From a virus, in IMG/VR virus record IMGVR_UViG_3300006037_000047, positions 1 to 20,970 of that record: 20,970 nucleotides of DNA, one strand, 5' to 3'. Positions 16,096 through 20,970 of this stretch are shown piece after piece; positions within the stretch are counted from its first letter, which is position 1; the number at the start of each line of letters is the position of its first letter. The notes below the pieces were generated by a model. It made no database searches and was not told the DNA's origin. It was given only the letters and a program-made list of their open reading frames with translations. Both the position numbers and the translations under genes were made by a program.

Positions 16096-16215
16096 TTGAC
16101 ACCTCATAAGCAGAATATCCTAATCTAAAACCGATTAAAATATTTTTTTAATTTTGTCTCAATTTGATCCAAAACCATGTAAAGTTTTCAATAAATTAGA
16201 TTTATAAATAAAATG

Positions 16216-16241: not shown

Positions 16242-16451
16242 ATGGATTTTATTGCTATCATGCTTATGGCTTGTGCAAACCCATCAATGAACGGTTTTAA
16301 AACTAAAAAACAATGCGAAAACTATCATTTGGATTGCGTTAAATGGATGCAAATACAACCCGAGGTCCAAGACAAAGGTCTAGGTCGTGATGAATTGCTT
16401 TTATTTTTAACAACCCAAAAGAAAAAAGACCTTAAAAAAATTTGTGGTTAA
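16242..16451 (+). CDS. Small Cys-containing protein of unknown function
   Basis: A 69-residue protein with a short hydrophobic N-terminus, MDFIAIMLMAC, then CENYHLDCVKWMQ and a charged helical tail (LLFLTTQKKKDLKKICG). LMAC would fit a lipobox, but there are no basic residues before it, so export is doubtful. I take ATG 16242, with GAGG at 16233-16236, rather than GTG 16236. The ribosome site lies in the loop of a small hairpin (16228-16241). Its TAA overlaps the stop of the convergent RusA-like gene. Confidence 0.6.
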   Translation: MDFIAIMLMACANPSMNGFKTKKQCENYHLDCVKWMQIQPEVQDKGLGRDELLLFLTTQKKKDLKKICG

Positions 16452-16810
16452 ATCTCTTCAATGGTGACTGTTAACAAAGGCCCTTGAGATTTGGGCCTAA
16501 ACTCTTGAGTGACGTTCCAAACCCCGAGCACGTTCCAAGAGTCTGACTCTAAAACCCCCGCACTCACCAGACCGTCAACAACAGGCTTTAAAGATCCAAC
16601 GAGGCCATCATAGTCAAGCGTACGATAAAAGTGCCTGACGATAGTTATACGCGCTTTTTTGAGGGGTTTTTCTGGCATCTGATTTCGACAAGTGCCGAAT
16701 ACAATCATATCCCAATTTTTATTTGTTTGATTATTTTTAAAGCGGTTTGTTCTAAGTGCCTTATTTAAAGACTTTGGCAATGAATGAAATTTGAGCTCAA
16801 TTTTGTGCAT
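16448..16810 (-). CDS. rusA: RusA-like Holliday junction resolvase
   Basis: A 120-residue protein on the minus strand. The pattern LPKSLNKALRTNRFKNNQTNK at the N-terminus, then RTLDYDGLVGSLKPVVDGLV and GVLESDSW, is the RusA family: the metal-binding acidic residues are Asp66, Asp68, Asp79 and probably Asp90. The dimer cuts four-way junctions and would resolve branched concatemers before packaging. With the ERF protein opposite, it forms a recombination pair. There is no clear ribosome site, and a promoter candidate (TTGAAA at 16846-16841, AATATT at 16822-16817) would start at or next to the ATG. Confidence 0.8.
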   Translation of the reverse strand: MHKIELKFHSLPKSLNKALRTNRFKNNQTNKNWDMIVFGTCRNQMPEKPLKKARITIVRHFYRTLDYDGLVGSLKPVVDGLVSAGVLESDSWNVLGVWNVTQEFRPKSQGPLLTVTIEEI

Positions 16811-16845: not shown

Positions 16846-16870
16846 AGGTTATATGTTAGCCGATCGGTTG

Positions 16871-16881
16871 AGGGGTTTGCG
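16871..16881 (+). repeat. Direct repeat AGGGGTTTGCG, copy 1 (decoy of the ERF ribosome site)
   Basis: Eleven bases identical to 17338-17348. Here they are not followed by a start codon. They take part in the closing stem with 16999-17005 and the long-range pairing with 17213-17222. Confidence 0.8.
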
Positions 16882-17272
16882 TTAAGCCCACTGGTAGAGC
16901 TAAAAAGCCGATCATGCAAAACCAGCCAAATTAACGTGGGTGACTCATGTCGAGAGATTCAAGACATACATATACAAGTCACGTTCAAACCGAGGCCTAA
17001 ACCCCAATGATGGGTGAACAGCATACACTGGCGAGCCTTGCGCGAAAGCGATCCATAAATAGCTTGGATCCAATAGGAAAAATCAGTTTTAAAGACTGAC
17101 CTAATTGGGTGATCTATGTCTCAAAATTCAAAACAATGTGATCAATATTTAAACATTGAAAAAATTATAAAAATTAGGTTGCATAAGATTTAAAAAATGT
17201 TAAATGTAACTCAACGCAAACCGCAAGCCTGTCCAAGTGTATGTTTGGGCGGGTGAGCACCCTCTCTTTAAA

Positions 17273-17323
17273 TCTAATCTAATCAGATTGACTTAACTTT
17301 TCTAATCTCTTAAAAATCTAATC
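17273..17323. repeat. Four copies of TCTAATC around the ERF promoter
   Basis: Exact copies at 17273-17279, 17278-17284, 17301-17307 and 17317-17323. Two flank the upstream edge of the -35, one is in the spacer and one follows the -10. The second and fourth extend to CTAATCAG, which also occurs at 19848-19855. They look like binding sites for a regulator. Confidence 0.55.
17288..17316 (+). promoter_or_regulatory. Promoter candidate for the ERF operon
   Basis: TTGACT (17288-17293, 5 of 6), a 17-nt spacer, TAAAAA (17311-17316, 4 of 6). Transcripts from here would start near 17323 and lack the structured upstream region, giving a second, unswitched message. Confidence 0.5.
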
Positions 17324-17337
17324 AGACAATACAACAA

Positions 17338-17348
17338 AGGGGTTTGCG
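17338..17348 (+). promoter_or_regulatory. ERF ribosome-binding site, copy 2 of AGGGGTTTGCG
   Basis: AAAGGGG followed by TTTGCG and ATG 17349 makes a well-spaced ribosome site. The same bases can pair with AAACCCC (16999-17005, 7 bp with 17339-17345) or CGCAAACC (17215-17222, 8 bp with 17341-17348), either of which would hide it. Confidence 0.7.
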
Positions 17349-18335
17349 ATGTCTGAAAAAAATATCTATCAACGCATGATAGAGGTCCAAAAGATAGTTC
17401 AATCAGTCGAAAAAAATTCAGTAGTCAAAATGTTCGAAAACGACAAGGGATATAAAGCGGTAACCCATGATGATGTTGCTAGGGCACTTCATTTGCCATT
17501 AGCAGAGTGCGGGGTTGTTATGGTCCCCGACGTTGTCAGTTATGCTTTCACAAGCTTTGAAAAGCCAAACTATCAAGGAAAATTGGTCACGTGGCACCGT
17601 GCAGACATTGAAATTTCTGTTAAATGGATCAATGCCGATAAGCCAGAGGATTTTTTTGCATCGAAAAGTGCTGCATTTGCTATAGATACATCAGACAAAT
17701 CATTTGCAAAAGCATATTCACTGGCTTTAAAGATTGCTCTTTTAAAAGTCCATTTGCTTGAATCACGTGATGATGAGGAGTCAAGACCATTCGAAAACGA
17801 AAACGGCATCGATTCAAAAGGAAATTCGACAACTAAAAACCAGAATAAACCAACACAAAAAAAGCAAACTCAACCCGAGCCACAACAAAAAACTGTCTTG
17901 GATCCAAAAGATTTCATCATGCCATTTGGAAAAACAACTAAGGGAAAAAAATTAGGATCACTTTCACTTGAGACTCTAAACGATGTTTTGCAATACACCG
18001 ATGGGGAGCTCAAAAAAGAAAATTCAACTGCACAACTTAACAATTATTTAGTTTTAAAAGCTAATTTGTTAAAAGTTATTTCAACTTTCAATCTAGAAAA
18101 AAAAGATGAACAAAAGCCAGATGTCGGGGACTCAATAATTGAAATCGAATTTGATACCGTCGAAAATGAATTGGTCAAAGGTAAGACTTTAAAAATGATC
18201 CCCGAAAAAACTCTTTTGGCCATGATCCAAGAGCTCGATAAAAAGATGCAGTCAGTCCCCCCGCCTAAAAACTTAACAGCTTTATTTTCGATAAATTCGA
18301 AAATCAAAGAATTTCTGAAATCTTGCGGGGTGTGA
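17349..18335 (+). CDS. erf: ERF-family single-strand annealing protein with ExoX-C-like tail
   Basis: A 328-residue protein. Residues 1-150 match the ERF family: IYQRMIEVQKIVQSVEK, YKAVTHDDVARALHLPLAECGVVMVPDV (35-62), VKWINADKPEDFF (91-103), and SAAFAIDTSDKSFAKAYSLALKIALLKVHLLES (107-139) ending in an acidic DDEESRPFE. Such proteins anneal complementary strands during phage recombination and end-joining. Residues 151-185 are a Gln/Lys/Pro linker. Residues 189-220 (FIMPFGKTTKGKKLGSLSLETLNDVLQYTDG) match the small domain found at the end of exodeoxyribonuclease X, thought to bind DNA. A helical tail follows. It heads the early operon. Confidence 0.85.
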   Translation: MSEKNIYQRMIEVQKIVQSVEKNSVVKMFENDKGYKAVTHDDVARALHLPLAECGVVMVPDVVSYAFTSFEKPNYQGKLVTWHRADIEISVKWINADKPEDFFASKSAAFAIDTSDKSFAKAYSLALKIALLKVHLLESRDDEESRPFENENGIDSKGNSTTKNQNKPTQKKQTQPEPQQKTVLDPKDFIMPFGKTTKGKKLGSLSLETLNDVLQYTDGELKKENSTAQLNNYLVLKANLLKVISTFNLEKKDEQKPDVGDSIIEIEFDTVENELVKGKTLKMIPEKTLLAMIQELDKKMQSVPPPKNLTALFSINSKIKEFLKSCGV

Positions 18336-18588: not shown

Positions 18589-18866
18589 TGAAAACAGCAC
18601 TAACAAAAGAAATAATAATCAGTCGTATTCAAAGTTTAGCTGTTGATCTTTTTAATTTCGCTATTCAATTTATTGAAAATTACAATAATGAAAATAATGA
18701 ACTAAAAGCACAGAATAAGGTTTTGATTGAAGCTTTGGAGAAAATTAAAGAATTTAAAACTTTAGATAATGGCGAGAAGTATAACTCATATGTTGACGGA
18801 TGGATCGGTGTTGCCGAGTTTGCTAAAAAAACAATCGAGCAAGTTAAAAAGATGAGGGGTGAGTGA
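18585..18866 (+). CDS. Helical coiled-coil early protein
   Basis: A 93-residue protein: an N-terminal helix ([28 protein letters not shown]), an Asn/Glu heptad segment ([21 protein letters not shown]) and a tail with a conserved-looking [17 protein letters not shown]. Such helical proteins are frequent in phage early regions and are of unknown role. Start ATG 18585 or the adjacent ATG 18588; both overlap the previous stop. Confidence 0.65.
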
Positions 18867-19465
18867 TGAACGACGATTTAAAAATAAGACTTGAACAACA
18901 TAAAATGTGGCTTTTAGATAACAATACTGGCCAAAGATTTATTGCCAAATCAGGCGAAAACCTACGCTCTGCGAACCTACGCTCTGCGAACCTAAGCTAT
19001 GCGGACCTAAGCTATGCGAACCTAAGCTCTGCGGACCTACGCTCTGCGAACCTAAGCTCTGCGGACCTACGCTATGCGGACCTAAGCTATGCGGACCTAC
19101 GCTATGCGGACCTAAGCTATGCGAACCTAAGCTATGCGAACCTACGCTCTGCGAACCTAAGCTATGCGAACCTACGCTCTGCGAACCTACGCTATGCGGA
19201 CCTAAGCTATGCGGACCTACGCTATGCGGACCTAAGCTCTGTCTATGGGTTTAAATTCAAACCTTTGCAAGTTGTGAACACAAAATATTTTATAACTATT
19301 TTGGATGATCAAGTTTTGTGGGGCTGCAAAAAAATGACATTTGATGAGGTTAAGTCTTTTAAATTTTCTGATTGTACTGACCTAACATGGGATGAAAACG
19401 AATTTAAACTAAATAAAAAAATCATAACTGAAATGATTAGATATTATAGAGTAAAAAATGGATGA
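18863..19465 (+). CDS. Pentapeptide-repeat protein
   Basis: A 200-residue protein. Residues 1-32 are a helical cap; 33-127 are about 19 pentapeptides of the form [N/D]-L-[R/S]-[S/Y]-A, which fold as a right-handed quadrilateral beta-helix; 128-200 are a globular tail ([19 protein letters not shown], then [16 protein letters not shown]) with a Gly-Cys turn found on other pentapeptide proteins. Some relatives (Qnr, MfpA) mimic DNA and protect gyrase; this repeat lacks strong negative charge, so that role is only a possibility. The DNA repeats are nearly perfect. It overlaps both neighbours. Confidence 0.9.
18961..19230 (+). repeat. 18 tandem 15-bp units, CCTA(C/A)GCT(C/A)TGCG(A/G)A
   Basis: Eighteen complete units in register, followed by a diverged nineteenth. 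Twelve of 15 bases never change; three bases are each one of two states, and all changes alter an amino acid (R/S, S/Y, N/D). Only five of eight combinations occur: ccA five times, aaG three, aaA four, acG two, caG four. Units 8-10 and 16-18 are identical triplets, a sign of block duplication. Confidence 0.95.
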
Positions 19466-20464: not shown

Positions 20465-20970
20465 ATGGGATCACGTGGACCACAGCCATCAGATAAAATA
20501 AATTGGGATGAGTTTGACAAACTCGTTTCATATCAATGCACCCAAAAGGAAATTGCAGCTTTTTTCAATGTCAGCGTTGACACGCTTGAACGCGCTTGTT
20601 TAAGAGATCGAAACGAAAAACTTGCGGATATTTGGGACAAAAGAACTTTCCTTGGAAAAGTTAGACTCCGAAAAGCCCAATTCGAAATCGCTGAATCAAA
20701 AGGCTCTGGTGCTGCAACAATGGCCATATTTTTAGGCAAGGTTATTTTAAAACAAAATGATAAGCCTGAATTAGATCCACCGCACCCGCCAAACGGTACG
20801 AGTATCGAACCAAAAAAAGTCTCATTCGAAAAGTTTTGTGAAAAGGCGGGTTATCCAGAGCCATTCGAAAAGCAATGCGAAATGCGGGCCTTTGGATTGG
20901 ATGAAACGGATCCAAGACTTTTGTTAGGTTCAAGGGGTTATGGCAAGACAGACTATGTCACTATTTTGGG
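20465..20970 (+). CDS. terL: TerS-like domain fused to terminase large subunit (N-terminal part; continues at base 1)
   Basis: ATG 20465 follows an in-frame TAA and opens a frame that crosses the circular join and ends at 1114 (509 residues in all). Residues 1-100 resemble stand-alone small-terminase proteins: MGSRGPQPSDKINWDEFDKL, then a helix-turn-helix CTQKEIAAFFNVSVDTLERAC, then FLGKVRLRKAQFEIAESKG and GAATMAIFLGKVIL. Residues 118-139 (VSFEKFCEKAGYPEPFEKQC) lead into the ATPase. Normally the small subunit recognises the packaging site and is a separate ring-forming protein. The ribosome site (GGTGATAGG) is weak. Confidence 0.85.
   Translation, partial: MGSRGPQPSDKINWDEFDKLVSYQCTQKEIAAFFNVSVDTLERACLRDRNEKLADIWDKRTFLGKVRLRKAQFEIAESKGSGAATMAIFLGKVILKQNDKPELDPPHPPNGTSIEPKKVSFEKFCEKAGYPEPFEKQCEMRAFGLDETDPRLLLGSRGYGKTDYVTIL
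20881..20970. repeat. Terminal direct repeat (circular overlap), right copy
   Basis: Identical to bases 1-90. Bases 20882 onward are in the same terminase frame as bases 2 onward, so removal of one copy restores an uninterrupted gene. Confidence 0.95.

Follow-up and report, generated by a model that had tools for sequence, protein, structure and literature searches.

Structured RNAs in phages and related systems

To our knowledge, large conserved structured RNAs are rare in phages and mostly unexplained. Two of them, GOLLD and ROOL, are considerably longer than the RNA described here. Both are large and ornate, are often phage-borne, and their structures are available (PMC12286853). They resemble the present RNA in being structured noncoding RNAs of phage genomes with unsettled function, but neither family gives an Rfam match here, the core is different, and the present RNA lies in a recombinase neighbourhood. 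ToxI is a repeat RNA that is processed by ToxN. ToxI-type RNA mimics are carried by phage PhiTE (PMC3475682), and the likeness, a phage-borne noncoding RNA that would act in trans, is a functional analogy only; in contrast to ToxI, the present RNA has no tandem repeats and has a large conserved fold. Pseudoknotted riboswitches likewise have helices that cross around unpaired, invariant segments. Unlike them, the present RNA has no consistent downstream gene, changes its orientation, extends over about 265–340 nt and has no Rfam match.

The locus described here carries a new phage RNA family rather than a decoy start-site switch, which an earlier note had proposed. We consider it likely that the gap upstream of erf contains a gene for a standalone noncoding RNA, structured and about 265 nt long, which belongs to an uncatalogued phage family, forms an early unit and has a trans role in recombination or replication.

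The window and its relatives

The window, i.e., the whole stretch of DNA that was analysed (positions 1–20,970 of IMG/VR record IMGVR_UViG_3300006037_000047; W in the comparisons), is, judged from its sequence, part of the genome of a dwarf myophage whose relatives include the Bdellovibrio phages phi1402 and MAC3UK. The terminase of the window shares about 63% identity with the terminases of these two phages, and the ERF match starts at base 1 of both records. Terminase kin were taken from IMG/VR; terminase alignments with phi1402 and MAC3UK worked, and single-protein searches for close relatives recovered none. The sequences reported in the earlier note lie in a noncoding gap of 538 bases, which is flanked by a rusA-like gene on the minus strand and by erf on the plus strand (Table 1).

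This gap resembles the equivalent gaps of relatives G004 and G011; once the proper strand is read, the gaps of phi1402, MAC3UK, G009, G012 and G018 match it as well. The blocks GAGGGGU, CCCA, CCA and TGACCT are common to all of them. A covariance model of the first eight sequences (R1) was run on loci from DNA motif scans and matched larger phages outside its training set, namely G040 (88 bits), G037 (85 bits), G030 (78 bits), G042 (61 bits), G041 (61 bits) and G038 (57 bits). With the dwarf-phage terminase profile, no related terminase was detected in these six larger phages. The 5' domain is thus borne by 14 phages, i.e., eight dwarf-phage kin, of which phi1402 and MAC3UK are cultured, and the six larger phages. 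A second model (R2), for which 11 members were used and the window, G004 and G011 withheld, recovered all three when 618 kb were searched: the window on the plus strand at 16857–16957 (27.8 bits, E 1.4e-4), G004 with E 3.8e-7 and G011 with E 8.9e-6.

No reading frame is conserved through the RNA across all members. In phi1402, the predicted RNA occupies 23377–23090 on the minus strand (about 290 nt). ORF40 of this phage (23212–23382, minus strand), annotated as a hypothetical protein, shares part of that stretch and is probably a spurious call; annotators now call such probably spurious proteins across the RNA. An RNA family with a 5' structure and no conserved coding exists and is spread over unrelated phages.

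The earlier note knew of no described RNA with this design in phages of this kind, and no described RNA matches the element here either. At the gathering threshold, Rfam gave no match to the element in the window and its relatives, with none of GOLLD, ROOL, HEARO, introns, riboswitches and other families above threshold, and permissive Rfam scans yielded chance-level matches only. A tRNA/tmRNA search was negative, and literature searches returned no description of this RNA. No copy in a host chromosome was found: candidates from a pattern scan of genome contigs scored at chance level with the model (18 bits at best), and none turned up in 146 genomes from a single bacterial phylum. Two viral matches, L093 and L094 (20–21 bits), were dismissed on inspection as chance.

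Table 1. Features of the window around the gap between the rusA-like gene and erf.
Feature	Position	Strand	Basis
rusA-like Holliday junction resolvase	16448–16810	-	PHROG 34, E 3e-11
Predicted structured noncoding RNA, about 265–270 nt, approximate ends	16857–17121	+	R2 match, alignment to relatives, no long conserved frame
P1, 5' strand GATCGGT	16862–16868	+	Pairs with 16907–16913; covaries at 6/7 pairs
Invariant core GAGGGGT, first part of the "decoy"	16870–16876	+	GAGGGGT in 13/14 phages, GAGGGGC in 1/14
P2, 5' strand GCGTTAA, second part of the "decoy"	16879–16885	+	Pairs with 16931–16937
Near-invariant CCCA, P2–P3 junction	16887–16890	+	Alignment
P3, 5' strand CTGGT	16891–16895	+	Pairs with 16921–16925
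P1, 3' strand GCCGATC	16907–16913	+	Pairs with 16862–16868
P3, 3' strand ACCAG, then conserved CCAA (16926–16929)	16921–16925	+	Alignment, covariation
P2, 3' strand TTAACGT	16931–16937	+	Pairs with 16879–16885
P4 (16991–16996 with 17035–17040) around P5 and the AGCATACACT loop (about 17022–17031)	16991–17040	+	
AAACCCC, first anti-site of the earlier note; overlaps P5	16999–17005	+	Lost in relatives
P7 (17050–17054 with 17066–17070); P8 (17073–17077 with 17100–17105)	17050–17105	+	
P9 (17084–17087 with 17095–17098); conserved TGACCT (17097–17102)	Within 17050–17105	+	
AACGCAAACC, second anti-site of the earlier note	17213–17222	+	10-bp complement to 16874–16883; unconserved
GC-rich hairpin, then GAGCACCC; candidate part of the RNA only	17220–17262	+	Sequence and fold
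erf ribosome-binding region, ordinary AGGGG type	17338–17348	+	Same site type at many window genes
ERF single-strand annealing recombinase	17349–18335	+	Pfam PF04404; PHROG 155

Structure and covariation of the RNA

The 5' part of the RNA folds into a pseudoknot, in which P1 crosses P2 and P2 encloses P3, and the domain is built around the invariant GUGAGGGGU, CCCA and CCAA segments. Its boundaries are those of the R2 match; the 3' domain was aligned with the relatives as far as TGACCT plus about 25 nt. The earlier note was right that the gap holds a structured RNA, and its helix covariation is overwhelming. Across the 14 sequences, 91.7% of the P1–P3 cells are paired, in comparison to 57% in shuffled sequences and 30–38% when the partners are slid. 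Double-changed, i.e., compensated, cells number 109 versus 32.9 ± 4.6 in shuffles, and the covariation score is 0.92 versus 0.24 in shuffles and is lost on sliding the partners.

The model used for aligning the sequences did not include P1, which therefore had no part in shaping the alignment. Taken alone, P1 is paired in 95.9% of the cells of the 14 sequences with a score of 0.73 versus 0.19, which none of 500 shuffles reaches; in the first eight sequences all of its cells are paired and six of its seven pairs change on both sides. In the 14 phages, P2 shows two-sided changes at each of its seven pairs, with 93.6% of its cells paired, and every pair of P3 covaries (86.4% paired). The fold energy of the window RNA alone is unexceptional (z -0.9), with the pseudoknot unscored.

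P1 also admits G-U pairs, as an RNA would, and its column 7 is UG in 10 of the 14 sequences. Such pairs are frequent in the covariation and are a mark of selection on RNA. They argue against a DNA-level element, i.e., an origin of replication or a site of recombination that folds as single-stranded DNA, which would suit the adjoining recombination genes and a position that, in the dwarf phages, is where the direction of transcription turns. We regard such an element as very unlikely; GC skew, used in the search for an origin, was uninformative.

Two further domains would follow the pseudoknot, first a middle one that varies and then a 3' domain of hairpins in which UGACCU is conserved. The window, G004, G011 and G037 show covariation in P4 and P5 and all contain AGCATACACT, and P7–P9 show hand-counted compensatory differences among the window, G004 and G011; these middle and 3' helices rest on few sequences (three to four phages) and on hand counts. 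G037 also bears the ACGGGATGCTTTG tail and in this way joins the window-type variant to the other type. Downstream of the RNA, a GC-rich hairpin followed by GAGCACCC, AAGCACCC or AGCAACCCC was seen by eye in the window, G004 and G011, and this hairpin may be a 3' domain or a terminator.

Neighbouring genes and possible roles

Twelve of the 14 phages have a recombination gene in the neighbourhood of the RNA, which occurs in either orientation. In the dwarf phages this gene is ERF, except for G011, which has an AAA_24 ATPase (RecA-like), a family that includes Sak4-type recombinases. Among the larger phages, ERF is found near the RNA in G037 and G040, RecT (PF03837) in G041, and a DUF3799 nuclease and ERF within about 2 kb in G030, while the neighbourhoods covered in G038 and G042 contain no recombinase. 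The orientation of the RNA relative to rusA and erf flips among the phages, and the genes downstream of it differ, including short orphan ORFs, rusA and a BRO-N protein. As both orientation and downstream gene vary, an independent RNA is favoured.

In eight of the 14 phages, nevertheless, a co-directional frame has its start no more than about 35 nt from the RNA end, and for this reason a cis-acting leader is to be weighed, either riboswitch-like or protein-binding, that would stand at the 5' end of variable early mRNAs and control the next gene. The next frame begins 3–33 nt past the RNA in seven phages (G004, G011, MAC3UK, G012, G018, G040 and G041) and overlaps the RNA in G009, and a compact pseudoknot with invariant unpaired segments resembles a binding pocket. 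However, no downstream gene is consistent, and the next gene is far away in the window (227 nt), G037 (96 nt) and G030 (461 nt), with no credible one in phi1402. Moreover, any RNA gene in a compact phage genome is expected to have a neighbour close by. A leader of this kind therefore appears rather unlikely.

For the preferred reading, a standalone RNA, we propose that it would be transcribed early as its own unit and would act in trans within the recombination/replication module, as its position suggests. Its likeliest action would be protein binding, or that of a replication-linked RNA. A more specific version, offered tentatively as one possibility, is that the RNA represents a new functional class among phage RNAs, works with the single-strand annealing machinery, e.g., in replication priming or by binding the recombinase or a host nuclease, and, in the unrelated phages over which it is spread, is kept beside ERF, RecT or AAA_24, whichever is used. 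The strong covariation, the isolates phi1402 and MAC3UK as a laboratory system and the recurrent link to recombination genes make the role directly testable.

The proposed erf switch

The earlier note suggested that a decoy ribosome site and two anti-sites could hide or free the ERF start. Its sequence observations are correct: AGGGGTTTGCG occurs exactly at 16871–16881 and 17338–17348, with no further mismatch-free copy in the window, AAACCCC and AACGCAAACC lie between these copies (Table 1), and the complementarities of 10, 8 and 7 bp to the AGGGGTTTGCG copies are real. The 11-base repeat is non-chance, since it never recurred in 1000 shuffles of the remaining gap with the ERF site kept in place. 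Of the shuffled gaps, 2.4% contain two 7-mers antisense to the site and 2.0% contain one 8-mer. A perfect 10-bp complement anywhere in the gap is found in 15% of shuffles, and the 10-bp pairing alone is therefore unremarkable. In addition, CGCAAACC is paired to the ERF site in the predicted fold of 17190–17349 (z -2.9).

Conservation speaks against the switch. The supposed decoy at 16871 is the core of the RNA, composed of the invariant GAGGGGY and the 5' strand of P2, a helix that pairs locally and covaries in 14 phages and that the AACGCAAACC pairing would break. While the relatives keep this core, they lose the proposed pairings, an outcome that the earlier note itself had named as refuting; as a mechanism kept by evolution, the switch is thereby refuted. 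At the position of AAACCCC, G004, G011 and G037 have TTAAGTC, TTAAGGC or TTAAGGG. The AACGCAAACC anti-site has no 10-bp counterpart in G004 and G011, and no relative conserves a AACGCAAACC-like partner. The RNA is co-directional with the supposedly regulated gene in the window, G004 and G011, but points away from erf in G009, G012, G018, phi1402 and MAC3UK, where it runs toward rusA if rusA is present. Thus, a cis effect on the erf start cannot be what the core evolved for.

AGGGG-type ribosome sites precede many genes of the window phage, and half of the shared 11-mer is therefore ordinary. The 11-mer would be shared because the RNA core and the ribosome sites of the phage are both G-rich AGGGG sequences, and the erf start site would be no target of the RNA. 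We consider the switch very unlikely, and the modelled sequestration of the ERF site by 17215–17222 may be a private quirk of the window phage.

Additional observations

A locus in L067 (8823–8952, minus strand), which corresponds to positions 20822–20951 of record G016, reaches model scores of 15–20 bits with a matching-looking fold and is kept outside the member count. It is next to rusA, precedes an HNH gene and erf, contains GGTGGAGGG, ACCC and CCAA in the right order, and is possibly a distant family member. In the window, a pentapeptide-repeat-like protein was recognized by eye at 18863–19465. Before erf, AATCTAATCAGA is present at 17276–17287 and again at 17315–17326, where the copies bracket a promoter-like TTGACT-18-AAAAAT (17288–17317), and a related inverted arm is located at 16192–16204, ahead of the 16236 gene; together, the copies and the inverted partner look like an operator or promoter pair. 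Finally, phi1402 (L002, 22628–23028) and MAC3UK (L003, 22379–22779) share on the plus strand a second stretch of about 400 bases that is 85% identical and has no annotated gene in phi1402, and which is possibly another structured RNA.
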